Below are positions 4,321 to 56,724 of a stretch of DNA of 64,000 bases, in pieces. The stretch spans positions 186,001 through 250,000 of the forward strand of contig JAODTK010005684.1 of the NCBI GenBank assembly GCA_026419785.1, written 5' to 3'. The number at the start of each line of letters is the position of its first letter. The first letter of the stretch is position 1. Under the pieces are notes generated by a model, which was given only the letters and a program-made list of their open reading frames with translations, made no database searches and had not been told where the DNA came from. Origin of the DNA: Sclerodactyla briareus. Its lineage: Eukaryota; Echinodermata; Holothuroidea; Dendrochirotida; Sclerodactylidae. Made by a program: the position numbers and the translations under genes.

Positions 4321-4366
<46 letters not shown>
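4321..4366. repeat. Run of 46 G
   Basis: Uninterrupted G homopolymer read directly from the sequence. Its true length is unlikely to be reliable. Confidence 0.95.
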
Positions 4367-4367
<1 letters not shown>

Positions 4368-6307
4368 ATGGTAGTTCGGGAGGACGATTGGAGTCGTGCA
4401 CATCACTCTCGACTATGTCCACCCAAACATCCTGACAGACAGATAGATCGACAAATGAACTACAAATGACCAGTAATGTCGGTTAACCCCGAACAACTTT
4501 CCAGGCAGACTAAATTGGAATGACACGGGTTCGTTTTCAGGGTGAGTTGACAGTTCAATAATTGACCATAACGATAACGCTATAGGAATGTTGTTTGTAA
4601 CCCAGGATTGCAAGTCGGGATTGTTAGCATGCGAACCTTCTCATTAGCATGGCCTGCCGCCTAACCCCCCTATCCAAGGCAGGTGCGTAGTCAGCAGTTC
4701 GAGTTCGGGTTAACGTTAAGGGGTAAAAGTTTGAGACATCTATATATTGTGATACGGTAAGTGGGGTAGGTAGCTCAGTGTTCTAGGTCGTGTAGTGGAA
4801 CATGGCCTTCTTGGTTAACAGAAAATGGAAGATGACCCCGGGTGCAGTAAGTAAGCACAATAGTTGAGCTTAGCTAGTCGTTAAAACCAGGCACTCTCCA
4901 CCCTGAAGGAAGGCATCGACCGGTCCTGGTTGAGAAAAAAAAGAGAGAAAAGAAGCAAAATAAATATATATTCCTGAAACAAACAGCAGTAATTCCATCC
5001 GTCGGTGGCAACAGGATACATATAGTATATATCATTAGGCCCGCAGACATATTGCATTTTGCCCACACCAGACCGTCCGAATTGAGACCCTGTTATAGGG
5101 TTTACTCAGAGATAGCAATAAACTGTATTATGAATGTTTGGAAGTTCTATAACTGCTGCCGGTGGCTAACCCCAGCAGGCCGTCAGCTTTGTGGGGTTGT
5201 GCCGAGTTACTATCACGACTTTATTGTCCCCGCTGAGCCCTTGCAAGGCTACACAAAACAAAAATTCTCTTATCCTGCTTCGAACCCCTTCCTCTTGATC
5301 GCTGATTTTTGCTGATCTGGAAGTGCTTTGACCGAAGTGCCGATGTTGGATTCTACCCAACCACACAACTGGTGGGAGAACCCCAGTAAGATGCAGGTGC
5401 ACTTGCTATATTACAGGGTGAGTCATATGTTCAATTGAAGGAATAACATGACTCCCCCTACTCCTTTTTATACTCACACCTATTTACAGATAGGAATGAT
5501 AACTTCTCAGCGATTCCATCTTTATCAAATGACATGTCAGGGGCAACAAAAATAGTGCACGCCAGTTTTACAAACTAGGCTACCATACATTTGGTATTCT
5601 AATGGGAATTTGAGTCCATACACTAGAACGTCCGTACAAATGAAATAAGGGACCTTCCAATGTAACCTGGTTCTGTCTGTACGATACTCTTCCACCTACC
5701 GTCCATCAAATTGACAGAGCCCCACTTTGATTGAGCACTCGGGCCGGTGTTACAATTTCTGACGACTGAGTTCAGTGCTGCATTGTAGTAGTAGGTAATT
5801 GCAGCTATGTTCTGTGATACCTTACGGCCTTCATGAAGGAGGTAGGCAAATTATTCATTCAAACTCATTCAGCAACTACAATTCCGTGGATGCAATCAAA
5901 AGAATTTTCTGTGGTGAAATCATCGACGGTTTCTATTTCGGACCTAGATATTTACTTCCGTCCACGAACATGAATACCAGCTGAAGCTTGGAGGATCTGA
6001 GTCCCGAAGCTGTATTGGCTCGGTATGTCGACATCAGTCTACCAAACTGCCAAATGGTCGACAAACAGGCGCATGTTTCTCATTTTCAGCATGGAAGACT
6101 TTTCGTCATGACTCTGACAAGTTTTAAAACCCTAGGGATTGTGTGACTTTTATACTTCTCCGCCTGAATTTACGATTTGGCATTCTAATTGCACGAATAT
6201 TTATATTCCTCTATGGGCAATTCATCCCTGAATTAATTGTACTGAAGACGCAGTTACAAAGGTTTTGTGCATAGTTTGATTCATGCATTTCTACTCGATG
6301 GGGTTAC
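4367..6307. other. No gene recognised
   Basis: Mixed unique-looking sequence. Plus-strand frame 5052-5315 and minus-strand frame 4874-5068 overlap in part and show no family motif. Confidence 0.5.
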
Positions 6308-12190: not shown

Positions 12191-12298
12191 TCCGGTAGTT
12201 GCATGTAATACCCCCAGTAGCCGGAACAGCCGAGTAGGATTATACACGACAGGGCGGTCACCACGCGAGGGCGATATTCTACTTTATCGTTCTTCTTG
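12191..12298 (-). CDS. NRF-6-like exon E11: later membrane helix
   Basis: A 108-base exon with branch-point-like CCTAAT, acceptor TTTTGTTTTCAG and donor GTAAGT. It reads KKNDKVEYRPRVVTALSC, then a helix ending YWGYYMQLP. A basic stretch followed by a helix and a Y-G-like end fits the segment after the G-Y loop in acyltransferase-3 proteins. The helix could also belong to another membrane protein; assignment rests on strand, order and splice quality. It ends in phase 2. No downstream exon with the expected R-T-x-W or L-S-(R/K)-L-T-Y motif was found to the left. Confidence 0.5.
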
Positions 12299-15200
12299 CT
12301 GAAAACAAAATTAGGTTGCAGTTTCTTCATTAGGATATAAATCACGAAAGCAGTTATGAAATGATCGTGAAGTGTCAATATGACCACGCGGGTGTTCGTG
12401 GTATCTATGTCATAATACTGCAATCGTATAACAGCAGTGTGGTAACGAATTGGGGAAATGATTTTTTTGATGTCAACTGGACTCCTCCGCTCCGTGGATC
12501 AATAACAGTTCAATTCACGGCATAGAAAGCACAGTTATTCCTTTCTACCACCCCCCCCCCCTCCCGATTTTCTCGACGGCTCCACGGCAAGAGGGTGTGG
12601 GAGGGGGAACAGGAGGTATCTGCGGTGTTGGCCACCCATCGGCTTTCGTTTTCCAATATCCACATATTTTCCTTTCTTCTCGTCTTTTTTCTTTCTCATA
12701 TCGAACCGCCACATTCATCAACCAATAGATAGGCTCGTCCCCTTCCCGGTGAGGCTGACGAAGTAGAGGGCCGCATCTCCCTCGCGCGTCACCGCTCGGC
12801 AGAGTCACCCCCGCCGAGGACGGTGAGTCACTTTGCCCAACAGCGGCGATCATCAGCCACAGCCGAAAGACAGTGACCCGGATGATTAAGACGCGAGAAC
12901 GTACTAAACTTTGCGTGATTATTTCGCGTAAGTAAAAGTAAGAATATAATATAATATATTTATTGTATAATTTACGCGGATGACGGATGAATCAGACCAC
13001 GCCCCGTGGCTGGTTTACTACCGGTACTGCTTCGCCTGTTCATATCGCTAAGCTGCTGAACCCCAGTGTTGATTTGTAGTGACTGTTTAAATAGTAGTTG
13101 TATCGGTGCGCGAGGAATAGCCAAAACAAATGGATCGTGTATATTTGTCAGTTTTTCTTTCCATTCAGAATCTCTCCAGAAGGCGTATATATTAGTATTA
13201 TGTGTGGAGAGTGCACTTCGTGGCCTAGTATGTTGAAGTTACAGCATTAATCGACAAACGATTTCATTTCTCGGACGCGATTAGTTGGCAGTTAAAAAGA
13301 CAATTGCAGGAACCAATTGTAAAGAGGTTAATATCACAGCTAAGGGGAAAAAATGAACCAATATCGGCAGAACCGACGGCTTATACAATTTCATTTTATA
13401 CGGGTACCACCTTCAAAGCTTGAGTATTGAGCAGGATAGAAAACATCCCACCATGCAATAATAATTGTGTCCACACTGCACAAACTGCGATGCTACGATA
13501 TGTTTTGTTCTATATTGCAATATTCACGTTAATTTGAAATTCTGAAAAATGGTCAGTCAGTGAGAAGGGAGTAAGAGAGGCCAATAGAAATCCGCGGGAA
13601 CGTTGGGATGAGAGTTATTTGACACAATGAAACACATAAGGTTTTTCCCGATGGTCAACTCGTATACGTCATCATCATTGCGCAATGTGGAGTATCCCTG
13701 GTTCCTTTCCATGATATATAGACCCTTTGAAGGGCAATAACTAAATCCTGCATGAGAACAACGTTTTGAAATGGGGTCTGGACCTGCAGGTATATATTTT
13801 CATATATTTACTCATATTTTACTCCTGCTATGAATTCCCTCATTGTCTTTTTAATGGGTTCCTGAACATACATTAATAGTCATCATTGTATGACTTCATA
13901 TTAACAATGGAAGATGGGGGATTGTTTCAAGTACTTTATAATCATCAGAAACAATGAATGTCATAATTGCCGAATGGTCCGACCAAAGCCCCATCATATG
14001 ATGCATGAGGAATTCTCTTCTAATCATATCACGATTATGATCGGCACATCCCATTGTGCTCATTCCACCATTGGTATTTGTTTTTTCTTTCATCTACGTT
14101 GCCAAATAATCAATTCTTTTGTTAAGATGGGAATGAAAAATAATATAGGAATATTCTTACTTGAACAGAAGTATAATGATATCGGCGAGAGAAAGATAGA
14201 CTGCATATCATTGGCGATGTACCATGTCCATCCCATGCCTGTAAAGAAAACCAGCAAATCAATCATCGACATTCAATCGTGGATAATATTAGTATTTGGA
14301 GAAATATAACTATTTTACTCATTACCTCAGTAACCAGGCGATCGCCCCCATTGTATCGCCTGGTTGCGCTATCATTATTTCTTTCCTCTATTTATCACCA
14401 TGCAAACAATTACAAGGCTTCCATATGGTTGCCCTTTAGATTTTCGTATAGCATTTAACAGAAACAGCCTACTCTACTCAGTGCCCAATTTCAAATTCGT
14501 GGGACTGTCTATTGACAATGTCTGCTAAAGGATACAAGTTTGTGGAAATGTGACTAAATTATTAAATTAGACCAATAAAGCCAACGGAAATTCCATTGGA
14601 CCCATTTTTCTTACGTCAAATAATGCCTCAAATATTCTTCGAAAGGTTCATGAAAATCAAACGAACTTTGAAATTTGGAATGACCATGCAAATAGACACC
14701 CTTAATGACCTCCAGTGTCCTCCAGTCTATGTAAAATAATATGTATAAATTATAATAATACAATGTTCTATGGCGAATAATTATAGAAATCAGTGGTGAT
14801 GGAATGAAAAAAATGAATACTAGCAATAGCAACGTGATCGAGTAAATGGTGTACATGTTAATGGTATCTCTCCCAATACCTCTTAAATATATAAACATTC
14901 ATCGCCATCATTGACTACACCCCTTGGAACATACAAATCTAAGCAACAGACTGTGGGTCCTTTAAGCATGATCCACTACTGTATCCCTCCCCTATAAACC
15001 AATAAGTACTAGTTAATACTTCCCTCGGATTAACTGTACTGTCGCACAATGTAAACGGACCCTATGCCCCACAGTAACGCACAGTAGATATTGGTCCTAT
15101 ATCTATTAGAGTTCATCCTATATCTCATCAAAGCGTATGCCCCATTTAAACATCTACTACTTCCAATAACTCCCGAGGGAGTTCACAAGCCGACTCCTCT

Positions 15201-21200: not shown

Positions 21201-24200
21201 AGACATAATGGCGCTTTCACATCAAGGTTCTTCTTCCGAATTCGCTAGTTATAGTAACACCAAACGGTACTTTCCCGATACAATAAGGTTGCACCTACCG
21301 ATGCCATAGCTCGTTCTATGCATGGGACTTTCTCTCTTCTCTCTCCATAGACACTGAATAATTAGGCCTGCCATTTTCTCTCCATTTGATATGATAGCTC
21401 CAGGTACCTACCATACGACGCTAACAGATAGGCACCAGGTTATTTATGTATAACAGGTTCGTCCACCAGTAGGACCTGCAGATGCCTTTGCTGCCGATTA
21501 GGAATTCGGTCTTGCCGATCCCTACCGATGGGTAGTAGTATAGAGACCCATATACCCGACGACCATGTAGACGGGCGTCCGTCGGATGTACCGATGGACG
21601 TAGAACCTCGCCCGAAGCTAGCCGTCTTCGATTTCTGCGGTGATTTATCCCAATGTTTCAGTGTGAGATAGGTCACTATGAATGGCGCTGTGGGAATAAA
21701 ACAGATCGTGTTCAACGTTTATGCTTGCCAAAGATTGAAGAAGAGAGAAGTTATAATAAGGGGATTCAGCCCACGAGACTGATAACTCAAGGTTAGAAAA
21801 TTCATAGGGCGAAAAATGATGTGAGGGGCCCTCCCATGTAGTGAGGACAATTTAAATCATGCAAATTGAGCTGCTCTGAAGTAATAAATAAATGTACAAC
21901 GATTTAGTTGACAACGGGCCATTTCCCTCTTTCTTAGTAGAGGCATTAGCACAACACCCGGCGAATATATACATTGCCGTTCGCATGAAACTACAACGAA
22001 AATATCGTCCACGGTTTCATCGAAGCATTTTAATTAATCCGTAACTAGACACTGTAGGGCGGGTACACCGCCAGACGTACATATCCCCGCATTCCATTCC
22101 AGAAATTTGTTGAACATGAAACCGGACGAATTTCGTGGAAAGAAGACATTTAAGACTGTGACTCGACAACGTGTACTGGTAATGGGTCTTCCAAATTGCA
22201 CTTGTTAATTGTATAAGGCACCCCCTACAGCCCCGGACCAGTGGTCCTAAATAAGCACATCTAGTCAAGATTCGACCTTTAACACTGGCCACCCGACAGA
22301 GGGGTCAAATTCATGTCAGAGGTCCACACACAGCAGGTCACCCAATTATTACAATGTTGAACCATCCAGCCTTCGCAGATATTCAATTCTCCGATTATAG
22401 CCAAAAAACATTGTGTGACCCCTAAGTGACCTCGAATGACCTTTATGATATTGCATTTTTAATGAAAATTGTACTCCTCCATGTGATACTTCCCGCCTAG
22501 AGCGAGTTGGAATTCTGATGACCACACACCCATGCTATTCCGAAAAAGTACTATCAGTTTTTGACCCCTAAGTGACCTTAATGACTCCATGACATTGCGG
22601 TTTATATGACAATTGTTACACTCCTGTGATGCATCCACTCCTAGAAGCATATTGCATTCCAATGAACAGTCCAATGTTATTGCGAAAAAGGTATAAAATG
22701 AACTTTGACCCTTGACCTACCAACGTAAGTGGTCCGATCTGAAGCGGTGAGTTGTTTCTCTCCATAAAGCACACCAAGCTCAATCACATATCCAAAAATT
22801 AAACCAGTTTCTATTTTTTTTTGCCCGTAACTCCTTACTTAAGCACATTTTCAAGTCGACTTCACCCCACATGACCACCCGACATGAGGTCCAATTCAGT
22901 TCAGATGTCACAAGACACATGCCGGTCACAATCATATAGCAATGGTGAACCATCCACCTCCTCGATATTCATCTCCGATGATCCAAAAAACAGTTTTTGA
23001 CCCCTAAGTGCCCCAAATGACCTTTCTGATGGACAGTTTTTATGGAAATTGTTACTCTCCTCCATGTGATACATCCACTCCTAGCCTAGGAGCATTTTGC
23101 ATTCTGATGAACACCCCTAGTGCTATTGCCGAAAAAAGTACTAAATATCATTTTTGACCCCTAAGCTGACCTTTAATGACCTTCATGACATGGCGGTTTT
23201 ATGAAAATTGTTACACCTCCCAAGTATGCATCACTCCTAAAGCATATTGCATTTCCATGACATGTCCATGTTTAGTGGCGAGAAATGTATAAAATTGAAC
23301 TTTGACCCTTTAACTACCAAATTAATTTTCCGATCGAGCGGGAGTTGTTTCCTTCTTAAAGCACACAAAGCTCTAGCACATATCCAAAAATAACCAGTTT
23401 TCTAACTTTTTTTGCCCGTACTCCTTAAATAAGCACATTTATTCAAGATTCGAAAACCTTGTAAACCACATGACCACGCCACAGAGGTCAATCAGTCAGA
23501 GGGCACAACACCTGGAGGTCAACAATTATATCACATGTTTACCCAGCCGCCTTCGCATATATTCATTCTCCGATTATAAGCAAAAAAGTTTTTGACCCTT
23601 AAGTGACCCGAATGACCTTTAATTGATATGACAGTTTTTTATGAGATGTTACTCTCTCATGTGATACTCCCCATCCTATGAGCCTTTTGCATTCTGATGA
23701 ACCACCCATTGCTATTGCCGAAAAGTACTAAAATCATTTTTGAACCCCTAAGTACCTTACTGACGCCTTCAATGACAGGGGCGGTTTCTATGAAAATTGT
23801 TACACTCCATGTGATGGCATCCACTCCTAGAAGCATAGTGCATTCCAAGACCATGTCGAGTTATTGCGGAAAAAAAGGTTTATAAAATGAACTTTGACCC
23901 CTTGTAACTACCAAAGTTAAGTGTCCGATCGAAGCGGGAGTTAGTTGTTTCCTCGAAGAGCACACAAAGCCTATCACTACCCAAAATAACAGTTCTACTT
24001 TTTTTGCCCGTAATCCTTAAATAAGCACCTTTATTCAGATTCGCCTTCACACCACATGACCACCCGACATAGGTCAAATCAGGTCAGAGGTCACACACAT
24101 GGGGTCAACAATCATATAGCAATGGTGAACCATCCAGCCTCGCAGTATTCAATTCTCCGATTATAGCCACAAAAAACAGTTTTTGACCCCAAGTGACTCG

Positions 24201-27200: not shown

Positions 27201-30200
27201 GCTTGAAAAGTTATTGTGATGTGGACACGACAAATGAAAGGCACAAAAAGGTATTTTCGCATACATGGACGATGGGGGCCCAATAGTAGGTAAATGTCCC
27301 TAGTGTCGGTGCCAACTGAAAAAAAGAAATATTCATGGATAGGCGAGGTTTGGAACCTTAAAGTCATTAAATGCACGTATGCCTGCCCGATAAACCATAT
27401 GTGTATATCGTCATAAAATTTATTCTTAGGACATGAGGAGAGGAATGAGGAAGGAATGAGATTGTCAACAGCTACTATGGCTTGTAACGCCCATAATTAC
27501 CCATTGCGGAGGAGGGGGGGGGGGAAGAACCAAAAGTGGTTTGCGGAAACAATGACACAAATGAAATATGATAAGTGTGGGCGGAAAGAAGAGTGTAAGG
27601 TGAATGTCCCATAGTGTGTAGAAGGTCTCCAGATACATGTAAACGACAACTTCCAGGAGAAAGGAAGAACTGCTGCATGGTAGTCGAAGCTGGACTGAAA
27701 TGAAAACTGAAACGCCTCAGAGATATCAAATTCTCTTTGATCCAACGGCACCACATCGGGAAGGTCTATATATGAGAGTTGTTTTCGGACCCACAACCGT
27801 TCCATATCACTCCAGAGCCTCTAATCAACGGAGCGAAGCCGATCTTCCGGCAAGGAAGGAGAAGCCTTGGCTACATAGACAGAAACTATAATAGCCTTCT
27901 TCACCAAGTTTTTGTGTAATCCATGAACGTTGCAAAAATAGTCACTGAACATTATGCAAATTTGACACAGGATGGCTTTGAAATGACCATTTAACTTTTC
28001 ATGAACAAATGTAGCCACCATCCACATCCAAATTTCGTTCAAATCTGACAAAATTATATTAATTATGCGAATTGACTCCGTGATCTTGAATGAAATGACC
28101 TACACCATTTTTAGGGATCGGACTATAGTCCCTACCCACCGAGGTTCGCTCAAATTCGTGTAAATTATGCAAAACGGCCACCAGATTGCAGTGATGCCCA
28201 CTTTCGAACTCATTCGAGATTTCACTGGGGCGGACTTGTTGTAACAAGGTTCAGATCAATATGATAAGGCTTTATAGAGTTATAGTGCTAACGCCTAAAT
28301 TTCACAGCGGCGGCGGAGAGACGGCGGCGCGGACTAACGGCTACCACACCCAAAACCATAATATACCCGGGACAGTGTCGCGGTGATACAATTAGAGGGA
28401 GCATTTCTGTGTTTGATGAAGCAATAACATTCCTACTAAACACGTCTATTGGAGGACAACTGCAGGTATGGGTACAACGGAGATATGACATGGAAAACTA
28501 TAGGTCCAACCCCTTTCAATTACAGATTCTATGTGGAGTGATTGTCCTTCAAAGTTCGGTCAATTAGCAGAGAAATTCAGGGAGGATCCCTTGGTGCGCC
28601 AGCAATAGCAAGTCGTCATCTCACAGGTTGAACAATACAGATAATTATGTTGTTCCATGGTTTTATTGTGCTAAATAACTCAAAGTTCTGTTGTTTCACT
28701 CTAACCAAAGTCACCATCAACACTTACCAACCATCTACAGCAATCCTCTCTCCTAAGCTCATTATTTCAAATTTTGGAATTGATTTGTGAATTCCAACCA
28801 AAATAAGGATATTTGCAGGGTTGCGCAATTGTTTGGAATCATTTATTATGCCATGATGGGATGAGGGTCTTGATCCTGGCAATACACACAGACAATTTCA
28901 GAGGCTCTAACTCTGTAACGGAAAATCCATAACAATCGGGTTCAGACTGACACATTTTTTTAGTTTTTCTCAGCTTGTAAATTAGCCTCCCTATAGTGTA
29001 TGCTGCAGTTGGCGTTAACTGCGTTTGAAGTTAATCCTCGCATAGTTCGTACCTGAGAACGAAGAAAGTATCGACAGCCAACGGTGCTTCCCAGTGACCG
29101 CATCCAGCGTCGACGCGACTCCTTCATTTAGAAATGTTTAGGGTTGTCTGGAACGAGAAAAAAGTTGGGGCATCGGACGAAAATGTAACAAATTGCGTTC
29201 GTCAATCGGCCTCAGACCAGCAGTGCGCATCGACTCTTCAGCTCGATCTAAAATCTAAATCAGAAGTACTGGCGTGTCAAATCAGACCAAACCTCCCGGG
29301 TTTACGATAAGCGGGAGCCCAGGGACTATTAACCCCCTAATTAAATTGTATAAACCAGGGCTTTTTTGTGGGGGGGGGGGGGCAAATAGCCCCTTAGGTC
29401 TTCACTTGGTCACACATTTAGGTAGGCCTTCCTAATAAATGCAGCAAGCACTATTTCAATGTTTTGTTGGCTGACTGACACATCAGTGTATGCAGTATGC
29501 ATGTGAGCTAAGTTTTATACCTCTTGGGTTTCATTTTCTCATTTGAAGACCTGGTCCTCCTCAATGCAGAAGTCGTAAAAGTGATCAGATCCCCTGGTCC
29601 TATTGAAATAACCCCTGGTCCCATGTGTAATTCCACGAACCAGGGGGTCCTTTCCCTGGAAAAGTAACCACTGGACTCTGATCCCTTATTTCGATCTTTG
29701 TACACCTCCTTCCTGTTGGACTAAAAAACATATCGGTTTGTCTACTTCCTTGCTTCCTCATTGTTCTTGTGTAACTCTACCAGAGCGAAATGACAGGCCT
29801 TTGAACCGAACTGCCCGAAGGTACCCTATCACTAGGACTGTCAGTAACATTGTTCTCTGTGAGCTCAGCGGAGGTAAATCTGGTTCTGGCTATGATTGGG
29901 CCTCACTTATCTCACTCGTGCTTATTCAAATAGTATTTAAATTGTATACCTAATCTTTGCTCAAATTATAGACATTTCTACCCTGAATCTTCGATTGGCA
30001 ATATCTGTGAAGGGTGGTTCACCTTAGCATTCCCCGTCCTCGTTAACCCGCCTCACATAGTCACACGAATGTACCCTGGCTAGGAAAGCGTGGAAGAACT
30101 AATTTCTTTCATTTTTTCCTAAAGAATAATATTCATCACAAGATATTTTAATCCGTACGAAGAAGTGTTCGTTCGAACCGAATCGATCCCTCTAAAGACA

Positions 30201-33200
30201 GTTGTGTTTCCGGCGCTGCAATACCTTGATGCAATATATAAAAACAACCTTGCCTTGCTAATGTAGCGTTGACCTCTATTCACATCTGACCCCATGATGT
30301 AGCGAGTTTATTTTAACTGTAAGCGGAAATGAATAGCCTACTACGAAGGCCCGGGTAATGGAGAGAAAAATAAGCGCAATTGTAAACGTTCTGGTAGCTA
30401 CCTTGACCTCCAATGACCTCTACTGACTTCGAAATGTCCTGCAACATTTGTCTTACCATGCTACATTGACTGTGCGTACTAAATGTCGTGCAAATCCAGC
30501 AATGCTGAGGATTTAGCGTAACTTAGGCACATGCCGTGCGCAGGAATATTTCCAGTGAAGGACTCGCACCTAAATTGCATCCTAATTTTCCTTTGAACCA
30601 TTCGTATGGTGTTGATGTCACGATCGAACGTGATTAACGACGAACAATTGAACGGACGCGCGGAGAGCCATGATGGTTGTTTCAGCAGCTAGACTAGCAT
30701 CCTTCGTTTTATATAGAGTTGAGGCAGGTGGGCAACTGACAAATAGGGACGCAGAGAGAGAGAGGAAAAACCTAGGACCACTGACATGTGTACCGGTAAG
30801 CAGAAGTGGATAATTTGTCATGGTTCTCCGAGCTAGGCCGCCACATGGAAGTCCACCACGAGTGACGAACAGTCAGACGTTCTAGGGTCTGTGTCCCCAG
30901 GACCCGGTGGAGTGGGTGGGATATGTCCGATCTAGTCAATAGTCACCCAGCAGCCCAGAGTAATGTTTAGTGCACTGCTTCTAGAGCATCCCTATAGGAC
31001 AGCGGTATCCGAGGGTTGTAGTTATTAAATATGATGATATTAAAAAGGTATGGGAATGAGTGGGAGGGGTGGGGATGTGACAGCGGTTTAAGGGTCTGAG
31101 TTAGAACTCTGCCCCACCTTTTTCCTTTCAACATGGTCATCATTCCCATTTGCACACTGAATTGAAGGGGCGGTTGCGGGATTCCGTTATAGCTAGGAAC
31201 ATACTTTCCCATTTATGCGCTTTAAATTTCGACATGTTATCTCACAGGGAAATTTATGAAGTCGCATAATGAGTGCATCCTTTTCGAATTATCACTAGAC
31301 AGGCCATCTTCCTATTCAGTGGTGATCTCTCCGCCATTCACGTGGGTGCCATTGCTTCTCTGGAAGTTCTGTGTTGCCACTCTCCTCCACAGATTCGAGG
31401 AATGAGATGATGGGGTGGTGGCACCTCGTTCGTTTATTCATTCGATTATTCATTCTGTAATGCTTATTCTCATCACGCGTATTTTGGTGGGGGTTTGGTT
31501 TGGTTTTGTTGGTCAGTAATTGCAGCCTTTTAGAAGTCGTTATTGCAGCCTTTTGGAACTCGATGTCTTCGAGAACCGAGGCTCATCTTCTTCGGTAAGA
31601 CCTGATGGCTGATTTGTTTCCTTGTATGCATGACGTTTTTACACTGGAATATGAAAGTGTTCTGTGGCTTTTCTGTTTCAAATTTCTTACATAGTGTTAA
31701 AGACATAAATGTAAACCATGCTCCGTAGTTGTTAGTCGGTTTTTAAAATAATTCGGGGAGAATCCTCTCGTGACTGGCCTCCGCGGTCTGGGACGATGGC
31801 GCAACACCCACCTTCTGTGTAATGTATGAGAATCTTTCAAGCTGGAACCTGGTGGCCCTAGGCTCTTCAACAGATGCCAACATTTGGTGCCGGGAATTAG
31901 GCCAGGGGACAGCAGTACCCTATCGTTTCCAGCTGGAGATTCTACACATTTCTTTGGGACTGTCCATGTTTGGTTGCTCTTCTTGAGTGAGTCAATGATA
32001 CTATTCTATTCGTGAATTCTTAGTGTTATTTTCATTCATCGTTATTGATCTCCTTCTTCAATGGCGTGCCAGTTCGTACAGTTTTCAAGTCAGGCTTTAA
32101 ACTTAGGCTAGATTTTAATCCATCCTTTTGTTTTGGCAAAGAATCCATACCCGACCGGTCTGTGCGCAACACTGTTGTACTCACATATATCAGTTATCAA
32201 GGCTATGTATTTCGGTAAAGCTCGGAACGTGATTGAGATGTAGACAAGAGAAAAAAATCAAGAACGTTTTAGGAGGGGGGAGAATTTTCAGATGGGATTG
32301 GGTGTCCCAACATCTTGGAGGGGTTACTATTAGCTATGGGAAAGACTCCTCATCACCACAATACTTGTGGTTATAAAGAGACAGTTCATCTGTATGTTAT
32401 GTTAGTTATATCAGAGGAATGACAATATGACCGCATCCGCAGCCACTGTGAGCGGCTAGATCGAAATTACGCTCACATATTAATTATACAAATAATAAAA
32501 TAATACAATTATTCTTCCATAGTTGTTGTGTGATAGCAAATAAATCAGGAGCAAAGGCAGAAATGGAATAGCTGAGCTAAAATAGCTCCTTTTTGCTCTC
32601 AGTGTGTCCACTTCCAATTTCTCGGAGGACATACTGACAGACCCTTCGACAAGAAGATATTCCCCGTATGTCTTCTGCTGTGAATTCCTCCAGCGCGTCC
32701 AAACAATACGGTCACTCTCTGGGAAACTGACCGCAGTGAATTTCGCAAGGAGTCGCCGGAACTTGCAGTCGCGGCCGCGGTCACCCCGCCAGTCTTCCGG
32801 CGTTGACTCCATATGGTGTGAGGTTGGCTTTTCAGGAGGAGGCTCCGTTGTATCGTCAATTGCTCTTGACTCACGCCCCAACTCCTTTCCAACACCCATG
32901 ACTGGACCATGCAGTAGTACAGGTATGCAGCTCATGCGACTTCGATTTTTAGCATAAAACAAAATCCCACTACCAGACTACCCGTCCTGTTTGATCGGCT
33001 ACTTACCGAGTCTCTGTGGCGATATCCAAGAAATACACAGCGTGGTACCACACAATCCACCACATACTGAGGACACGCATCCCATTCAAGGCACCGAGGT
33101 TTCCTTTGCGCTTCTTGGCGCTCAGAACTCCTGCTCCGTTTAGCAAGAACGGAAAACGACAGTAGAAGTTTCTTTACGAGACCTTCAGGAAGAGGAGGAA

Positions 33201-35002
33201 ATGAGTAACGTTACGGGAACGTTATGAAACAACAAAGATTATGGAGGGAATGCTACTCTAACATTTCTCTGGTTGGTAGAGAGAGAACAAAGCCATGTGT
33301 GTGATGTGTCGCGCCTTTAATCGAGATAGAACTAGTCAGCGACTCTCACAATATGCTGTTACATCAGAGGTCAAATAAATAAAATTGACAATGAAGCGGT
33401 AAACATGAAACGCATTTTCAAATGAAAATATTTTTATATATATATATATATATATTATATAGATCCTATGATTGAAGCGTTACCACTATACTGTATTTGT
33501 GCTGAGCGAGGCTCCATTGTGCCACCATAGGCGGCAACAGCCAATCGAATCATGCATCCAGCACATGGACATTAATTTGAGGTTACATCCGAACACGCTT
33601 AACGCTACCCCTGCAAATACCTGCACTCAAATATGTATTTTAAGATTAAGATTCGGGTTAATAGTCCTGTGTCAAGGCAGCGCCTCTTTACACGACTAGC
33701 GCAACGGGGCCTACTTCCGTTACTTCGCAGGTACCCACTTTTACACGTGGGTAGCGTGGACTCTCGGGTAGACATGCCTTGTCTAACAGCACTGCGGAAA
33801 AAGCCCTCGGGTTTTCAATGGGATTAGAACTCGCAATCTATTGATCTTCCGGAGCTCTACCGACTGAGCCAATCTTCGAGTATAAATCTATTTTCTCCAT
33901 GTGCGTCACTGATAGGAGTGGGACTAACCGTTGAAGCCAGTTGCCCGTGACGTCCAGTGGGGGCAGTCGCAACTTCTACCTCCTGGACGTCGTGGCTATC
34001 CAGGGGGATCGTAGTCTCGGCAGGCTGGCCTTCATCAGTTGTAGCAGCCACGGAGGGTTTCCCGCTATCGACATTAGTGTCCTGCAGTGGTGTACCACAG
34101 GAGTATCCCCATGTGCTGCTTCCGCCTCTCTATCGCGTCGACAAGCAGATGCAATATCGTATATCGTCCCTGTGATCGCTGCTATCGCGAATACCAACAG
34201 GATGATGAACTGAGGACGAACGATTGAAATTGACATTTTCCGATATGCTAGCATTGTTCAAGTATAGAGGCAGATCCCACGGTGGAAGATATCAGGTTCT
34301 TGCCTCATAGCTCAATTGATAGGGCAAGAAGGTCCTTGGTTCGAAATCACTTCCAGATTTCCGTCCTCCCCCCCCCCCCCCCCCTCCTCTCTCTCTCTAT
34401 ATATATATATACGAATACATGCATATATCACTGTTCAGGAGACTATAGCAACATCTCGATCAGGATCTCGATTTTCTCGTCCAGGCACAGGTTACAAAGG
34501 CCCAATGAACGCCTATATGTGTTTGAGTGCCCTGCTACTCATCCACTGGATGTAGCAAGGCACTCAAACACGTAAATAATAATAAATAGCAGTAAAGATT
34601 GCTCCGTTAAACCAGTAAGAGCCAGCTCTTTTGGGTGACCTGTACGAATGCCCCATTGGCAGTAACATACAGTAACTGACAACAAAAACATTTAATATGT
34701 TTAATTTATCAGGAGAAATTCCCGACCGAAATGAAATATTGAAGATATCAGTTGAAGGTGTTAAGATAGTGGAACCAACAGAATGGTACTCAGCCAAAAG
34801 CAAACCGGACCAACTGCCTTTTCGTGATATATAACTGTATAAAACAATTTCTATTTTGTGGGGCACGTGGTCTCGAAGAATCGTGCGTGGAGCACCAGGA
34901 ACAACTCATAGGGGTCTGTGGCATGACCCGACCAGCTTCGAAACTAACATCAGCAAACACTGGTTGCTCAAACAATGAATTGTGAATTGCATCCTTGTAG
35001 CT

Positions 35003-35063
<61 letters not shown>

Positions 35064-38000
35064 AGCGACAAGAGTAGAGACAAGAGGTCGGACAACGAGA
35101 GAAACAAAGCAGGAAATGTCGGGGGAAAAATAAATTTTCTGTGAAGGAGTATGTCACATTATGGGACAGAAGAATGAGAGGTTAGGTGTGTAAAAAAATT
35201 AATCGATGGGGGAGGGACCCAAATCGTTAAGCAGGAAGCAAGTCCCTTCCCCCGCCATCGAATATTCCCCTTCTTCCAATGAACGAGAGGGAAAATCATA
35301 GCAAGTATCACATTGGGGAGCGTCACAAGAGCCATCATCATCGCCAATCATTGATGTAAATTCTTGAAACGCCTTTACTTGTAATCACAGACAAAAATAG
35401 CATCCCAGTCCAAGGGACTTGGATACACGTGAAATGGCACTGGAAATTGTGTCATACTGGTCCAAACACTGGAAACAGAAGAGAAAAGAAACACGGAGGG
35501 TAGGATGATATGTCAAGTTTGTAAAGATGGACAGACAGACAAACTGAGGACTGGAGAATATACGGTAACTATCAATTACATTGAAGAAGGGAGAGGAGCA
35601 GGTCAGAGGAGAGGACGAGCAGAAAGGAAAAGACGTGAAGAAGTAAGAAGAGCAGAGTACAGAGCAGCAGGAAGGCCAGATTACGAGTGAGGGGAGAAGG
35701 TTAGACAAAAGCGAGAGTAACATGCACAGATGAAAGAGAAAGAACAGATTGAGGAAAAACAGGAGGCGTAGAAGACGGGCTATAAAGGAAAGATGAACAT
35801 AGTGAGTAAAGTAGGAGGAAGAGGGAGGGAGGTCAGGAAGGGGAAAACCCGAGGGGTGAGCATGAGATGGTGTGGGAAGGTGGGGGGGGGGGGGGGCGTT
35901 CGAGTAACCACGAGGTGAAGCAGGAGGAATGCCCAATTGAGAATGCGGGACAAGTCAGAGGACGCAAGAGGAACGGAACAGAGGAAAACGTTACAGAAGC
36001 GGAAGCGAAGGGGAAGAGCAAGAAAGGGGCGTGAACATGGATGAAAGAGTAACAACGAGAGAACAAGGGAAAAATGGACAAATGCGGCAGAAGAGTTATA
36101 GAGGCAAGAATAATAGAAGTAGGGAAAAGGAGGTGAGGGAAGAGGAAGGGGGAGAGACCAGCAGTATAAGACAGCGAGGGAGTGAGGCAAGTTAACGGAA
36201 AGGGGAGAGCAGGTGGAATAGAGAGAACTGGAACACGGGGAGGTAAACGACGAAAGAAAAGCAAACAAATAAAGAGAAGAGAAGGAGGAATAAGGGACAA
36301 GGGAACATGAGGAAGAGCATTGGAAAGTGAGGAGTGAGGATAGTCAAAACAATCTGAGAGTAGTGAGGAGAGAGACAAAAGAGAACAATGGGGCGTAGGA
36401 AAAGGAGAGGGAACATGGGAGGAGGACACATAGGATAAGTGAACCTTTAGAGAAGGGAAGGGCATCACCAAGAAAGAAAAGAAGGGGAGGAAAAGAAGAT
36501 AACATACCGGCATAAGCGATGACATTAAGGTCGTGGCCCGAGCAGGACGCAGGTACACATAATCCTACTTGCGAGCGTAGGCTTGTAAAATGAACAAAAA
36601 AATAACAGACACAAAACGCACAGGGAGGTCAGTATAATGTATGGCGATTAATTATTTTCGAACACGGTGTATTGCAACACAAATTTCCTGTATCGGCGCC
36701 CAAAGGACTTAGTGTGGTCTAAGTTAAAAAAAAAAAACTCGGTAGATGCGGGTCAATGACCGTGAACGAGGTTCTCTTTGAACGTTCATAATGAGTTACG
36801 TGTCTATTTTACTTGATTACTGTACACTTTACCACTGGGTCGTTTGACCCAGAATTGGGTCAGAGGGATCTAAAACATTTATGAGCTGAAGCTTGCCCCA
36901 CATTGAGCGGGAATTTACCAAACTTGGGTCAACAATTAACCACAAATGGTAGGGTTCTCCTGACCCAATTTACGGGTCGATTCGAGTTGAATGTTTGGAG
37001 TGTATATAACTTGAGGACACTATAAAACGAGTGTTTGGAACTATTATACCCAGGGTTTGTTAATTACTCGAAAACAATGAGGGCATCACACTTCTACGGC
37101 CAATTGAATCTACCAATGTGAGCCAACACTATTCGCGTTTCAAAATTACCCTATCTACAGAATGTAGACTTCTCGGCTGACCTCAGTTGACCTTTGACCT
37201 TTGGGTGCACACACTTCAATGCGAGCGGCATCTTGGACCTTTCGACAAGTTATCGCGTTTTCGAAAACATAAGTATTCGCGATAGAGGTACACATGATTT
37301 GATAGATCATTACTCTATTTGCAAGCCTGTAAAACCGCAACGCGTATTGGTTTCATTACGTAGTATATTGGCCATAACACTCCAATTATTCTCCGTAAAC
37401 ATCTCGTCTCATCAAACATGCCAGGAAAACTCGGAGACCGCAAAACAAAACCACACCAAATGGCGCTATGGCCTGCAACTAAAAATTAGGCATTGCTGTG
37501 ACAAGAACGCAATAACGTACTTTGCATGCATGCTTCGCTAGGCTTAAAATTCAATCCTTCCAAAGTTTGAAAGCATTTCAACTGACTAAGATTCGCGGCA
37601 CGTAACGGGGGTGGGAGGGGGTTGGAGTGCGCGCCTTCAGAATAAAATAAGGGGCGAGAAAATAGGAGAAGAAAGGAGAGGGGGGGGGGGGGGGGAGGGA
37701 GAGCCGAATACACCAACCAGAAAGCCACAAGGCTTAGTGACTCCTTGACTCATTTCTGACAACATATGCCAGACACCAAACAAATGGAAAAATTCACAAG
37801 CTCATTATGGGCAACATTATGACACGTCCTGACAAATTGCCTTCCCACTTTCCCACCAACAAGGCATCGCCCCCAGTATCTCGCCTGGTTGCTCGATAGG
37901 TGGTTTCTTCTATTAGTCACCATGCAAACATTACAAAGCATTCCGTGGTTCTTTTGGTATTAGCATTTAACAGAAGCAGCCTACTAATCAGTGTGACCAA

Positions 38001-41000: not shown

Positions 41001-42009
41001 ACAATAATGATCAGGAGTAATATCTGTGAAGCGCTTGAATACTGTATGAACAAAGATTAAGCGCTGTATGAGAACCAGGTTCGATTATGGTCAGTGTTCC
41101 AACCTGCGTCTGATGGGTGACATAGTATTGTAGGTCGGATATCGTCTCTATCCGAAATGTCAGTGAACAACCTTCGCCACGTGTCACGATCTTGTGCAAG
41201 CTTCATTGCTCATTCAAAACTGTTAATGTTGATGTCCTTGAATTACGATTTGATCTTTCCGAGCAAGGTAGTCACGTGTCTCCCAACGGGTTCAGCAGTA
41301 TGTCTTAATGCTTCTCTTAGCTTCCTCTTGGAGTCTTGCAACGTGACCGAAAAATCTCAATCTCCTATGTGTTACCACGGATGACCAAGGGATATGGTTG
41401 GTCACACCATAGAGTTCACTCGATTTGGCCTCTCGATATTCTGTTGTGGGGAGGCGAGGACCTGGGAGGGGGGGGGGGGGGGGGGGGTCCTCGACTGGCC
41501 TTGAACTATCTCCACGAGGCAATATGTTAGAACCTCCCAAATTTCTGGGGTTGCGTTAGTCTCCTATGTGTGGGTCTCTTACCGAGGGGCAGTCATATCA
41601 CAGTGCTGGGCATTCATCGGTATTTCTTTCTGCTCGTCCTCCCGCACGCTGACGCACAGCTCAAAGTTACCGAGGTACTTGAGCCTATGCGTGTAGTAAA
41701 TGGTGCTCAGTCTGGGCGGATTACCGTTAGCCGCTCTCACGTAAGAGAAGGATGGACCGGTGAGATTAGTCATTAAACAAGAGTGCCCATTAGACAGGAA
41801 CTAACCCCAATTACCAGTAATTAATTTGCCGCACGTGAGGGTAGGAAAAAATGTGCATACATTTCAGTGATAGCGTGATACCTCAAATTATCATCGACAA
41901 CAAATATTGAATGCCCCATTTTTGCCATTGTATATATATATATATCTATATATATATATATATCTATATATATATATATCTATATATATATATAATATAT
42001 ATATAATAT

Positions 42010-42040
<31 letters not shown>

Positions 42041-45000: not shown

Positions 45001-46109
45001 GCGACACTCTATTGCCCGTTCAATTAACGTGGGTCTAAGTAACACAAAAACGAGCGGAGACGGAAACTCCAAATTTGAGGTTTGGGGTTATGGAATACGC
45101 TCTTCGAAGAATTTCAAGCAATCTGCTGTAATCTTCAGTATGATTCGCACAGGCATACGGAACCGTCCATTATTTTCTGGGTATTGTGAGACGCTTATGC
45201 CTCTCTAATGTTACACACTGACTTTTGTGTGTGTGTCTTGTGAAGCAATGATTAACAGGTTTATTAATTGCGGTATTCTCCGCGTTTCTTGAACAGCACC
45301 CATACACAGATCCACTTTTGTCGCCTTTAACGGCACCATGGGGAATGCCCATGTAGCATGAGCCCCAGCCCACACACTTCGACAGCCTGCATCACTGCAG
45401 TGCCTTCTCAATAGGGCATATAAAGGTAACACCTGTCTATTAAGGACAATATTTTCTAGAACTGTAGAAGTGGAAGGTAAAATTGAAACGTTGTCCTACA
45501 TAGGCTAACCCAGCGAACACAAAAACGTTACTTCCATCGGGAACTTCATAAAAATGTTTCAATAACACCACATGGAAACATTTTTAGAAGCTCTTTTTGA
45601 GATGTTATGATAACGTTCAGTGTTGGTGGGTTTGGTATAGGCCTATAGCCCTACAATAGGACAAATTGCTTCTCAAAAAAACCCAAAAATGTACATGGAT
45701 GAAGACTTAGGGCCTGAGGCCAGTTGTAGGCCTAGCTAGCTGTGAATGGCCGGTTCACGTATTGCCCGTATTCACTTACTTTTCATGGCGTAATCCTTGA
45801 ACTGGTAGGTGTCCGTCAGAAGGGTCCAGACGTCTGTTAAACATTCCCTGGAGGCGGGCTCAGGTAGGACCACTGCGAGGTGCCAGAGGTGGCTAGGAGC
45901 CCAGGAGAGGCCAGAAGCCTCATCTACCTGGCTGAAGTCACCGACCATCGTGAAGAACAGATCGATTTCCGTGACGTTATCGAACACCAGTTCCGAAAAT
46001 TCGAGCGCCAGGTCCGGGCTCTCGTCGTCCTGAGCGAAACGCCGCGGGGGTGGGAGTAACGACCCGAAAACAGCACTAGGATCACCAGAGGACAAAGTAG
46101 TCGCGTCAT
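12191..46109 (-). CDS. NRF-6-like acyltransferase gene (partial, multi-exon span)
   Basis: This is the span of the only cellular gene I recognise. The predicted product has a signal peptide, a cysteine-containing extracellular NRF domain, one membrane helix, a linker and then the multi-helix acyltransferase-3 domain. In Caenorhabditis elegans, NRF-6 relatives act in intestine or epidermis in lipid and drug uptake; the reaction is unproven for most members. The evidence is an ordered series of minus-strand exons with family motifs: LGNFELC, LNGMRVLSMWW, RYIRRTPVYM, YWWTNLLYINN and WTWYIANDMQ. Intron phase agrees at E1/E2, E7/E8, E8/E9 and E9/E10. The C-terminal part of the acyltransferase domain is missing. 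Introns reach about 7 kb and are full of repeats. Single-base frameshifts occur in five exons without substitution stops, so I favour sequence error over pseudogenisation, but cannot exclude a recent pseudogene. Confidence 0.78.
13275..13339 (-). CDS. NRF-6-like exon E10: membrane helix (3' end uncertain)
   Basis: A very good acceptor (CATTTTTTCCCCTTAG) opens VILTSLQLVPAIVFLTAN, a hydrophobic helix in the position where the family has a helix after the ANDMQ motif. The two-base start matches E9. The frame then meets a stop and no clear donor follows, so the 3' limit is approximate and one or more indels are likely. The following conserved K-P-x-x-R-I-x-P-Y loop was searched for between 13.3 and 12.3 kb and not found with confidence. 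Confidence 0.45.
14161..14238 (-). CDS. NRF-6-like exon E9: WTWYIANDMQ
   Basis: A 78-base exon between acceptor GGTTTTCTTTACAG and donor GTAAGAAT, open without correction. It encodes MGWTWYIANDMQSIFLSPIS, matching the conserved C-M-G-W-x-W-Y-L-A-N-D-M-Q-F motif of NRF-6-like acyltransferases, which enters a membrane helix. The upstream T left by E8 completes the cysteine codon. The single base left at its end joins CT of E10 as threonine. Both sites and both phases agree, so this is a firm call. Confidence 0.85.
14325..14720. repeat. R1 repeat copy, intron E8-E9
   Basis: Shares ATCGCCCCCATTGTATCGCC, TCACCATGCAAACAATTAC and CAGAAACAGCCTACT with the copies near 37.9 and 40.0 kb, followed by a GACCTCCAGTG phrase. 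Confidence 0.55.
15470..17095. repeat. Composite repeat R6+R0, copy 2
   Basis: Same order of landmarks as the copy at 180-1930 and the same terminal CA repeat and hairpin (CCTGAACAAAGTTCAGG). It lies in the intron between E8 and E9. The two copies differ by many single-base indels. Confidence 0.7.
18316..18370. repeat. CA microsatellite
   Basis: CA repeats with a few ACC interruptions. Confidence 0.95.
18590..19080. repeat. R2 repeat, copy 1
   Basis: Shares with 28480-28890 the phrases AAGGTCCAACC, AGAGAAATT, GCAATCCTCTCTC, GTGGAATTGATG-like and CCAATACACA in order over about 450 bases. No coding potential. Confidence 0.6.
19960..20710. repeat. Repeat with CA-rich end
   Basis: AAATTTGGAATCATTCAGTC and AAGTTTGAAATCATTCATCC are two similar sub-units, followed by AATGGAGATATTTGCC and a CA repeat at 20663-20710. 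The style resembles the R0 group; no second copy is in the window. Confidence 0.4.
21426..21687 (-). CDS. NRF-6-like exon E8: RYIRRTP and YWWTNLLYINN
   Basis: This is the clearest exon of the gene. After acceptor TTTTATTCCCACAG the first frame gives PFIVTYLTLKHWDKS, the second FYVHRYIRRTPVYM, and the third CRSYWWTNLLYINNLVPI. In order these are the helix after the FFLSG motif, the conserved (Y/F)-x-R-(R/L)-T-P-x-Y loop and the Y-W-W-x-N-L-L-Y-x-N-N motif of NRF-6-type acyltransferases. Each switch needs one missing base; with both restored the length becomes 264 bases, consistent with the phases at both ends. The donor at 21425 (GTTAGC) leaves T, which joins GC of E9 to give the expected cysteine. 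Confidence 0.85.
22260..25710. repeat. Tandem array of about six 600-base units
   Basis: The phrase GCGGTTTTTATGAAAATTGTTAC-like recurs near 22590, 23190, 23785, 24380, 24985 and 25600, spacings of about 590-620. Each unit contains GATCGAAGCGGGAGTTG, AAGCACATTTATTC, GACCACCCGACA and two diverged sub-units of about 145 bases (one ending in CTAGGAGCATTTTGC, one in CTAGAAGCATATTGC). Units differ mainly by one-base insertions and deletions. The sub-unit resembles the one in R0 at 59.2-59.5 kb. It lies in the intron between E7 and E8 and codes for nothing evident. Confidence 0.85.
25720..26560. repeat. R0b-type element with GC-rich end, copy 1
   Basis: After TATGCAAAT-type units it ends with a GGC-rich stretch (26445-26505), ACGGCCAAAACATAATACCC and GCGGGGGATATAATGA. 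The same end recurs near 28.3, 38.9 and 52.1 kb. The 217-codon minus-strand frame across it is produced by the GC-rich end. Confidence 0.55.
27651..27765 (-). CDS. Tentative NRF-6-like exon E7: loop before FFLS
   Basis: One frame reads PDVVPLDQREF and AFQFSFQSSFDYHAAV; the neighbouring frame reads QQFFLSPG immediately afterwards. Family members have a FSFQ-like segment followed by V-D-T-F-F-F-L-S-G just before the next helix, which E8 opens with PFIVTYL. The proposed donor (GTTGTC at 27650) is weak, but it leaves one base that fits the two-base start of E8. The acceptor TATATAG is also weak and its phase disagrees with E6 by one base, so at least two indels are implied. The position and motif order are the main support. 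Confidence 0.45.
27890..28400. repeat. R0b-type element with GC-rich end, copy 2
   Basis: CACCAAGTTTTTGTGTAATCC units are followed by GGCGGCGGAGAGACGGCGGC, ACCCAAAACCATAATA and a CAGTGTCGCGGTGATA end. Same order as the 51.6-52.2 kb copy. Confidence 0.55.
28480..28890. repeat. R2 repeat, copy 2
   Basis: Counterpart of 18590-19080; follows the R0b end at 28400. Both copies lie in introns of the NRF-6-like gene. Confidence 0.6.
29000..32479. other. Intron sequence between E6 and E7, no exon recognised
   Basis: Mostly unique-looking sequence with a G run near 29370. Short frames (29738-29953, 30618-30821, 30967-31212) lack motifs and good splice pairs. Confidence 0.5.
32480..32962 (-). CDS. Unassigned 160-codon ORF inside the E6-E7 intron
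   Basis: This is the longest frame in the gene span that is not explained by low-complexity DNA. It begins just after the E6 donor. The middle is charged, and the end is a hydrophobic stretch (AIPFLPLLLIYLL) before a short tail, somewhat like a membrane-anchor signal. Overlapping frames on both strands are also long, which is typical of a GC-richer patch. I do not recognise it; it could be chance or a relic. Confidence 0.15.
   Translation of the reverse strand: MFYAKNRSRMSCIPVLLHGPVMGVGKELGRESRAIDDTTEPPPEKPTSHHMESTPEDWRGDRGRDCKFRRLLAKFTAVSFPESDRIVWTRWRNSQQKTYGEYLLVEGSVSMSSEKLEVDTLRAKRSYFSSAIPFLPLLLIYLLSHNNYGRIIVLFYYLYN
33007..33182 (-). CDS. NRF-6-like exon E6: start of acyltransferase-3 domain
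   Basis: Acceptor CCTCCTCTTCCTGAAG is followed by KKLLLSFSV, then in the next frame LLNGAGVLSA and GALNGMRVLSMWWIVWYHAV. This matches the family signature: a short amphipathic S-F-S segment, N-x-x-x-L, then L-x-G-(I/M)-R-(V/F)-(L/F)-S-x-x-W-(V/I), with the histidine of the usual GH motif kept in WYH. In acyltransferase-3 proteins this histidine region is thought to be near the active site. One extra base just after FSV accounts for the frame change. The donor is GTAAGT, leaving phase 2. About 5.2 kb of repeat-containing intron separates it from E7. Confidence 0.75.
33427..33462. repeat. TA microsatellite
   Basis: Short TA repeat before a LINE/SINE-poor stretch of the E5-E6 flank. Confidence 0.9.
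33640..33882 (-). mobile_element. tRNA-derived SINE
   Basis: On the minus strand a tRNA-like head shows box A TGGCTCAGTCGGTAGAGC (33871-33854 region) and box B GAGTTCTAATCCC (33832-33820). A body follows with GGCATGTCTACCCGAGAG, GTGGGTACCTGCG and CGCTAGTCGTGTAAAGAGG, typical of a tRNA SINE body rather than a tRNA gene. It lies in the intron between E5 and E6 on the gene's own strand. Confidence 0.7.
33929..34209 (-). CDS. NRF-6-like exon E5: first membrane helix and linker
   Basis: A strong acceptor (TCGTTCGTCCTCAG) leads into FIILLVFAIAAITGTIYDI, a membrane helix ending in G-T-x-Y-D-x, the usual end of the first acyltransferase-3 helix in NRF-6 relatives. A charged, low-complexity linker follows. 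The frame changes once near 34105, consistent with one missing base. The most likely donor is GTTAGT at 33928; a donor at 33980 is an alternative. E6 follows after about 750 bases of intron, which contains a SINE on the same strand. The exact 3' end and the phase into E6 are unresolved. Confidence 0.6.
34298..34430 (+). mobile_element. Degenerate tRNA-like SINE head with simple-sequence tail
   Basis: TAGCTCAATTGATAGGGC resembles box A and GGTTCGAAATC box B, but they are closer together than in a tRNA. A C run, CT repeats and TA repeats follow. It is too short for a tRNA gene. It lies just upstream of E5 on the opposite strand. Confidence 0.4.
34519..34571. repeat. Foldback hairpin
   Basis: Outer arms GTGTTTGAGTGCC and GGCACTCAAACAC (13 pairs) and inner arms TGCTAC/GTAGCA and ATCC/GGAT around loop ACT, with one mismatch and a two-base bulge. 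Confidence 0.85.
35003..35061. repeat. Run of 59 G
   Basis: Uninterrupted G homopolymer, the longest in the window. Located in the intron between E3 and E5. Confidence 0.95.
35460..36520. repeat. Polypurine tract of about 1 kb
   Basis: The plus strand is very largely A and G with few pyrimidines, in irregular GAGGAA-type order. The long proline, serine and leucine-rich frames on the minus strand follow from this composition and are not genes. It lies in the intron between E3 and E5. Confidence 0.9.
37182..37326 (-). CDS. Tentative NRF-6-like exon E3: cysteine segment
   Basis: An acceptor (GGTTTTACAG) opens a 145-base frame that starts with the single base needed after E2 and ends in phase 0 at a GTCAGC donor, matching the phase-0 start of E5. 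The peptide holds three cysteines and IEVCAPKGQRSTEV, resembling the family's G-V-C-x-P-x-x-C segment but without its second cysteine. The 3' end overlaps a TGACCTTTGACC repeat phrase, which weakens the call. A competing reading is LGLCNLCLDEKIEILIEMLL at 34505-34446, with poor splice sites. Confidence 0.3.
37855..38030. repeat. R1 repeat copy, next to the LINE fragment
   Basis: Shares CATCGCCCCCAGTATCTCGC and AACAGAAGCAGCCTACTAAT with the other R1 copies. It directly follows the minus-strand LINE fragment, so it could be part of that LINE's 3' end, although other R1 copies have no LINE beside them. Confidence 0.5.
38120..38590 (-). mobile_element. LINE reverse-transcriptase fragment in intron
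   Basis: The minus strand reads YRIREWLHNREQRGVIMGG, then a broken G-V-P-x-G block, a relic of the catalytic region, and FQCRQVQSMHVG followed by LNGQYIQEV-like sequence. These are the L-x-x-x-R, G-V-P-Q-G-S and N-x-x-K-C-x-V-M-H-V-G landmarks of L2/CR1-type reverse transcriptase. Many frameshifts are present. It sits in the intron between E2 and E3. Confidence 0.8.
38610..38895. repeat. R6 repeat copy
   Basis: Matches 200-480: AATTCAGCACAGTT, GGGGGCCCAGAAGAGGT, AATACTAGTTA, AAACTCCAAATAGA, CTGCAACAT. Here it is followed by an R0b-type end instead of R0. Confidence 0.6.
38930..39048. repeat. R0b end with expanded GGCGGT hexamers
   Basis: Eight or nine GGCGGT units precede GGCTACATACCCAAAACC and CACTCCAGTGTCGCGGGGAT. 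The other copies carry plain GGC repeats at this place, so the hexamer is a local expansion. Confidence 0.65.
39050..39084. repeat. Perfect hairpin, 16-bp stem and 3-base loop
   Basis: ATGGGGAGTACAGTAA, loop CAA, then TTACTGTACTCCCCAT. The arms pair without mismatch. It directly follows the R0b end at 38930-39048. Confidence 0.9.
39935..40865. repeat. R1 repeat joined to an R0-type end
   Basis: The left part (CGCCCCCAGT, AGCACCAAGCAAACAATTAC, CAGAAACAGGCCTAC) matches 14325-14600 and 37855-38030. The right part has repeated CATAAATTATGCAAATTA units and ends with a CA repeat, GTGACCACTAG and hairpin CCTGAATGTCATTCAGG, like the R0 copies. Confidence 0.6.
41110..41450 (-). mobile_element. LINE ORF C-terminal relic
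   Basis: On the minus strand the frame contains VVTHRRLRFFGHVARL and further on QDRDTWRRLFTDI. The R-R-L-R-(F/W)-F-G-H-V-x-R motif followed by D-R-x-x-W-R is the usual C-terminal end of many invertebrate non-LTR retrotransposon ORFs. It ends only about 130 bases before E2 and is interrupted by frameshifts. Confidence 0.65.
41583..41733 (-). CDS. NRF-6-like exon E2: NRF domain core
   Basis: The 151-base exon is open without any correction. It starts with two bases that complete the codon left by E1 (A plus CG, threonine) and reads TANGNPPRL, then RLKYLGNFELCVSV, then MNAQHCDM. These correspond to the family pattern DA-x-GKPP-G, LG(S/N)(Y/F)D-x-C and the following (Y/H)C. A branch-point-like TGACTAAT and a pyrimidine-rich stretch precede the acceptor; the donor is GTAAGAG. 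It ends in phase 2. This exon anchors the extracellular NRF domain and fits E1 exactly in phase. The short match is family-level only, and I cannot assign a subfamily. Confidence 0.7.
41928..42056. repeat. TA microsatellite
   Basis: About 130 bases of TA repeats with regular CTATATA and AATATA interruptions. Confidence 0.95.
42090..45779. other. First intron of the NRF-6-like gene
   Basis: Besides the TA repeat and the candidate TIR element it holds frames at 42367-42786 (plus) and 44703-44987 (minus) that look moderately coding but have no motif or matching splice partners. AACCGTCCAT-ATT appears at 44973 and again at 45167 in similar surroundings, a weak local duplication. Confidence 0.45.
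43169..43872. mobile_element. Candidate small TIR element
   Basis: The ends CAAGGGTGGCGCCAG (43169-43183) and CTGGCGCCACCACTG (43858-43872) form an inverted repeat with 13 of 15 matches. The inside has clusters of CCGTCGGGGAA at both ends and a CGCGCTTCGCGCGC phrase also found at 11608-11621. No transposase frame is present. A target-site duplication is not clear. Confidence 0.4.
45780..46109 (-). CDS. NRF-6-like exon E1: signal peptide and NRF domain start
   Basis: The chosen start is the ATG at 46109, because it begins a classic signal peptide (MTRLLCPLVILVLFSG). About 24 codons in, the coding signal moves to the neighbouring frame, which stays open to the donor and holds acidic, then C-x-D-rich sequence ending TYQFKDYAMK. 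That ending fits the NRF domain pattern C...D...L, then WALKM. The switch needs one missing base near the C-rich stretch around 46050. An alternative ATG at 46140 is in the second frame throughout but gives no signal peptide. The exon ends at a strong donor (GTAAGTG at 45779), leaving one base (phase 1) that joins E2 in frame. A TATA-like site lies about 220 bases upstream. Confidence 0.65.
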
Positions 46110-56690: not shown

Positions 56691-56724
56691 GTCTGGCGTG
56701 TGTGTGGGGTGTGTGACACCCATG

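Follow-up and report, generated by a model that had tools for sequence, protein, structure and literature searches.

Proteins of the NRF-6-like family (nose resistant to fluoxetine) carry an N-terminal signal for secretion or membrane entry. In C. elegans, its members NRF-6 and NDG-4 take part in lipid and yolk transport; NDG-4 is predicted to be a transmembrane acyltransferase, with NRF-6 as its homologue (PMC3919970). For OafA and OafB, bacterial O-antigen acetyltransferases of the acyltransferase-3 type, three motifs are reported: R/K-X10-H, which lies in the first helix, FFXISG and RXXR. The first and last of these are essential in OafA (PMC7448272).

In this study, we analysed a stretch of 64,000 nucleotides from Sclerodactyla briareus (the window). 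Its contig is 261,591 bases long and belongs to an assembly of 3171 contigs totalling 319 Mb; the window is positions 186001-250000 of that contig. An NRF-6-like acyltransferase gene is supported as the best reading of a locus on its minus strand. We consider it probable that this is an ordinary animal gene for such a membrane acyltransferase, and that the one-base frame breaks in it are assembly errors.

Exon structure of the minus-strand locus

The gene is read leftwards in small exons, starting at 46109 and reaching at least to about 4780, and its span is at least 41 kb because the C-terminal exon encoding RLAKLNYCAYLLHP sits near 4.9 kb. The initial annotation had placed the gene at 12191..46109. 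The start at 46109 stands, but the gene continues past 12191. The named exons were also retained, but two exons inside the span (E3 and E6) and one beyond it (E12) had been overlooked. The order and strand of the reported peptides were as claimed, with each found once, on the minus strand: GNPPRL (41725-41708), LGNFELC (41674-41654), GTIYD (34170-34156), LNGMRVLSMWW (33089-33057), RYIRRTPVYM (21593-21564) and YWWTNLLYINN (21471-21439).

E1 (45780..46109) opens with an ATG at 46109 and a signal-peptide-like stretch, MTRLLCPLVILVLFSG, with a hydropathy of 1.56. A signal peptide had been proposed here earlier; the stretch lies in a different frame from the remainder of E1, where the NRF domain starts. 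The donor is GTAAGT. E2 (41583..41733) encodes the middle of the NRF domain (GNPPRL...LGNFELC...QHC), and the added E3 (36508..36581; donor GTATGT) its end, QVGLCVPASCSGHDLNVIAYA. E4 (34090..34247, 3' end provisional) encodes a transmembrane helix containing GTIYD with a hydropathy of 2.48, and likely carries a frame break. The acyltransferase-3 domain starts in E5 (33007..33182), which reads LNGMRVLSMWWIVWYHAVYF, contains R-X10-H and has one frame break. The added E6 (29053..29147; donor GTACGA) is read in three frames as DNPKHF, LNEGVASTLDAVTG and APLAVDTFFVL, and the piece of it searched against Pfam gave no hit.

E7 (21426..21687) is likewise read in three frames, as APFIVTYLTLKHWDKSPQ..., RFYVHRYIRRTPVYM... 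and YYPSVGIG...YWWTNLLYINNLVPI, and holds the RXXR motif. E8 (14161..14238) encodes MGWTWYIANDMQSIFLSPISLYFCS, preceded by a cysteine completed at the splice. The peptide CMGWTWYIANDMQ reported by the initial annotation is thus absent from the DNA as written: the exon reads GMGWTWYIANDMQ, and the C before it arises solely on joining 21426 to 14238 (T|GC). E9 (13283..13339, 3' end provisional) is hydrophobic, VILTSLQLVPAIVFLTAN, with a hydropathy of 2.11; it showed no donor before a stop and no Pfam hit. E10 (12191..12298) encodes SKKNDKVEYRPRVVTALSCIILLGCSGYWGYYMQLPE and ends at a GTAAGT donor. E12 (4780..4925, 3' end provisional) reads GPVDAFLQ, GWRVPGF, RLAKLNYCAYLLHPG and VIFHFLLTKKAMFHYT with at least three frame changes, and was assigned to the gene by what we take to be a family motif. 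E7, E8 and E10 were placed in the same way, by motifs that we assume to be characteristic of the family.

GT donors and AG acceptors are present at the junctions proposed earlier (45780/41733, 21426/14238 and 14161/13339) and at the end at 12191. A donor could be placed for eight of the eleven exons, and all eight have G at position +5, compared with a fraction of 0.224 among the 4004 minus-strand GT dinucleotides, a comparison that is not a clean probability since the donors were picked by eye near the ends of similarity. Most intron phases had been said to agree. Read by hand, five of the seven testable junctions are in phase (E1/E2, E2/E3, E3/E4, E7/E8 and E8/E9). Of the other two, E5/E6 is in phase solely if one follows a frame that runs into a stop, and E6/E7 is one base out of phase. 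The GC content of the exons is 0.511 compared with 0.432 for the window (0.43 in round figures), a value that none of 2000 length-matched random sets attained, with the ends of E4, E9 and E12 being arbitrary.

Several expected pieces were searched for by eye and with regular expressions built on motifs taken to mark the family. No convincing exon was found for the segment at NRF profile positions 67-99, and no piece was found between E9 and E10 or between E10 and E12. The last helix likewise had no convincing candidate; these searches also took in the 20 kb to the left. For the middle of NRF, an exon reading ...VRYCVLVTAMPNF near 37.5 kb was considered and rejected: alone it had no NRF match, and when it was added to the query the match stayed at profile positions 25-70 (E=0.0042).

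Dispersed and tandem repeats are numerous in the window, which has the look of animal DNA. A unit of about 600 bases, rich in TGACC, forms a tandem array at 22245-25704 and has relatives near 0.6-1.9, 15.8-17.1 and 59-60 kb. The stretches at 54310-59075 are related to each other in inverted and direct orientation (54310-56665 against reversed 57373-59075, 66-70% identity) and are perhaps an old mobile element. Uninterrupted G homopolymers occur at 4321-4366 (46 G) and 35003-35061 (59 G), besides several shorter G runs. ARAGORN found no tRNA in the window, and Rfam gave no match there at gathering score.

Profile and motif evidence for the gene family

The identity proposed by the initial annotation is supported: matches to an NRF domain are followed by one to the start of an acyltransferase-3 domain, and published catalytic motifs of the latter are present. 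E1 and E2 together matched NRF (PF20146) at profile positions 1-67 (E=0.0041), and E2 preceded by the final codons of E1 matched positions 24-67 (E=0.0067). E3 alone matched positions 101-120 (E=0.00058). The NRF domain is represented by two separate matches in profile order, with positions 68-98 not found. E5 matched Acyl_transf_3 (PF01757) at positions 3-25 of 326 (E=0.016, 14.7 bits). All profile scores here are lower than the cut-offs of 27 bits for NRF and 31 bits for Acyl_transf_3, as expected because the queries are single exons.

We also scanned long frames, twelve in total (1+2+3+6, at E-value limits of 10, 1, 1 and 0.1), and one of the twelve gave a hit. This was NRF at E3, where a 13.5-kb minus-strand frame with stops written as X matched positions 99-120 (23.7 bits, E=6.5e-5) as the sole family. 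Nothing was found in the long-frame scan of E5's own frame or in the three frames holding E10 and E12. As single pieces, E7, E8, E10 and E12 had no NRF or acyltransferase match in Pfam, and for E8, E10 and E12 Pfam gave no hit of any kind. Profile support had been anticipated for the exons carrying RYIRRTPVYM/YWWTNLLYINN and CMGWTWY as well as for E2; E2 did match NRF, but in those two neither domain was detected with the E-value limit set at 10. Their placement therefore rests on the order of the exons, on the RXXR motif, on splice sites and on motifs that we presume to mark the family. Pfam hits to Endonuclease_5 (E=0.1) and MIAC (E=0.035), and a weak, unrelated hit of E4 to TRAP_alpha (E=0.079), were taken as chance.

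Inspection of the motifs revealed R-X10-H in E5 as GMR-VLSMWWIVWY-H, with exactly ten residues between R and H, and RXXR in E7 as RYIR. A loose R/K-X10-H-like pattern occurs 31 times in the six frames of the window and is common by chance. The pattern [RK]..R[RL][TS]P occurs three times, and the single minus-strand occurrence is that in E7. E6 ends in VDTFFVL with AG before the donor. The S and G of an FFXISG motif would hinge on a split codon and an off-phase next exon; the pattern FFx[ILVM][SR] is also common by chance (24 occurrences in the six frames). Patterns of the CVP.SC, GTxYD, WWTN and YLLHP type were found once each in the six frames, at the expected places, and we take WWTN.L.YINN and the YLLHP type to be motifs of the NRF-6-like family.

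Searches across the whole assembly placed these matches in context. With NRF, its six frames yielded three scored candidates, two of them matches with an E-value of 10 or less. E3 was the top match (16.6 bits, E=1.95), which is not significant at the scale of the assembly; the second was low-complexity and looks like chance. Acyl_transf_3 found nothing at 0.001, and this locus was absent at E up to 10; the sole match (E=0.5) lies elsewhere and is low-complexity, again resembling chance. A query made of E7 and E8 gave three matches, all within this gene at E7 and E8, and so revealed no close second copy, though it could miss distant ones.

In viral contigs, neither the six pattern matches to E7-E8 nor the 82 to E5 were confirmed, and a degenerate WWTN.LY.NN pattern had no occurrence in viral or genome contigs. 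Solved structures gave weak, unrelated hits at most for E7-E8, E5 and E2, and a literature search with the exon peptide strings found no paper.

Frame breaks and alternative readings

The initial annotation stated that no single frame is long enough to reveal the gene. The exons are indeed short, but the frames are short also because of one-base frame breaks, which had gone unreported, and not because of introns alone. About eight one-base changes of frame are clear (one in E5, two each in E6 and E7, at least three in E12), and further breaks are likely in E1 and E4. To place them against the background of the window, we compared repeat pairs aligned over 250 columns or more with an identity of 77% or above, using three gap costs (8, 6 and 7 pairs, overlapping and non-independent). 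The ratio of indels to substitutions was 0.97, 0.66 and 0.43, respectively. For simulated repeats, a true ratio of 1.0 yielded 0.75, 0.56 and 0.39 with these costs, and true ratios of 0.1 or 0.2 yielded 0.09-0.24. One-base events made up 592 of the 800 indels in the window repeats at the loosest gap cost. This excess of one-base indels across the whole window points to assembly errors. In addition, stops lie within 6 of 14 HSP70 matches in the same assembly, which fits a noisy assembly, although pseudogene copies could also account for them. The HSP70 exons cluster on one contig, some with internal stops.

The clear frame changes, the likely additional ones and the failure to find several expected pieces would also fit an NRF-6-like gene that has decayed, with genuine frame breaks. 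We regard such a pseudogene as unlikely, since the gene retains splice-like ends as well as its catalytic and family motifs, and the one-base indels are in excess over the window and not in the gene alone; the HSP70 matches with stops point the same way, unless those copies are themselves pseudogenes. Of the two sources of frame breaks, we favour an error-rich assembly over a dead gene. That the breaks are genuine, and that splice sites and catalytic motifs persist because the gene is nevertheless transcribed and used, through correction or another allele, as the animal's only detectable NRF-6-like locus, seems extremely improbable.

The exons could also be parts of at least two adjacent NRF-6-like genes, for which introns of up to about 7 kb, undetected exons and the 7.3-kb gap between E10 and E12 leave room. 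However, no two of the parts found cover the same stretch of the protein, their order and strand agree, and the E7-E8 query hit this locus alone in the assembly, making this arrangement very improbable. Several exons were located through motifs taken to mark the family, and the two loose catalytic patterns are frequent in the six frames, which is what similarities selected by eye might look like. Against this, NRF was matched twice independently and the acyltransferase domain once, all on the same strand and in the order of the profiles, while the six frames of 49-64 kb gave no Pfam family at E up to 0.1, and we hold chance to be next to negligible as an explanation. A single NRF-6-like gene in an error-rich assembly thus remains the preferred reading.

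Proposed protein and comparison with known systems

The encoded protein would consist of a signal peptide, a cysteine-containing extracellular or lumenal NRF domain, one transmembrane helix and a multi-pass acyltransferase-3 domain. By analogy with what is known of the family, the acyltransferase domain may accept, at its first helix, an acyl group carried by acyl-CoA in the cytosol and hand it through the membrane to a lipid or sugar on the opposite side. The protein might join in the distribution of lipids, as NRF-6 and NDG-4 do in C. elegans.

As a test of method, a frame-broken gene of tiny exons was recovered from raw sequence by the order of its motifs, and the profiles agree. Annotation gains a probable NRF-6-like gene that spans 41 kb or more. 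Around it the assembly appears to hold many one-base indels, which will lead gene-finding programs to break up genes or overlook them.

Taken together, the locus is most likely another member of the known NRF-6-like family, biologically ordinary and without a new kind of system. Like NRF-6 and NDG-4 of C. elegans, it has an NRF domain (PF20146) followed by the start of Acyl_transf_3 (PF01757), but unlike them it has exon-sized matches below the cut-offs, frame breaks and parts that were not found. Like bacterial OafA and OafB, it combines RXXR with an R-X10-H in the first helix (PMC7448272). Compared with their FFXISG, E6 offers FFVL, and its fit to FFxxS depends on an off-phase join. Unlike OafA and OafB, the locus is eukaryotic and split by introns, and it has an NRF domain, of which the portion of their description drawn on here makes no mention (PMC7448272).
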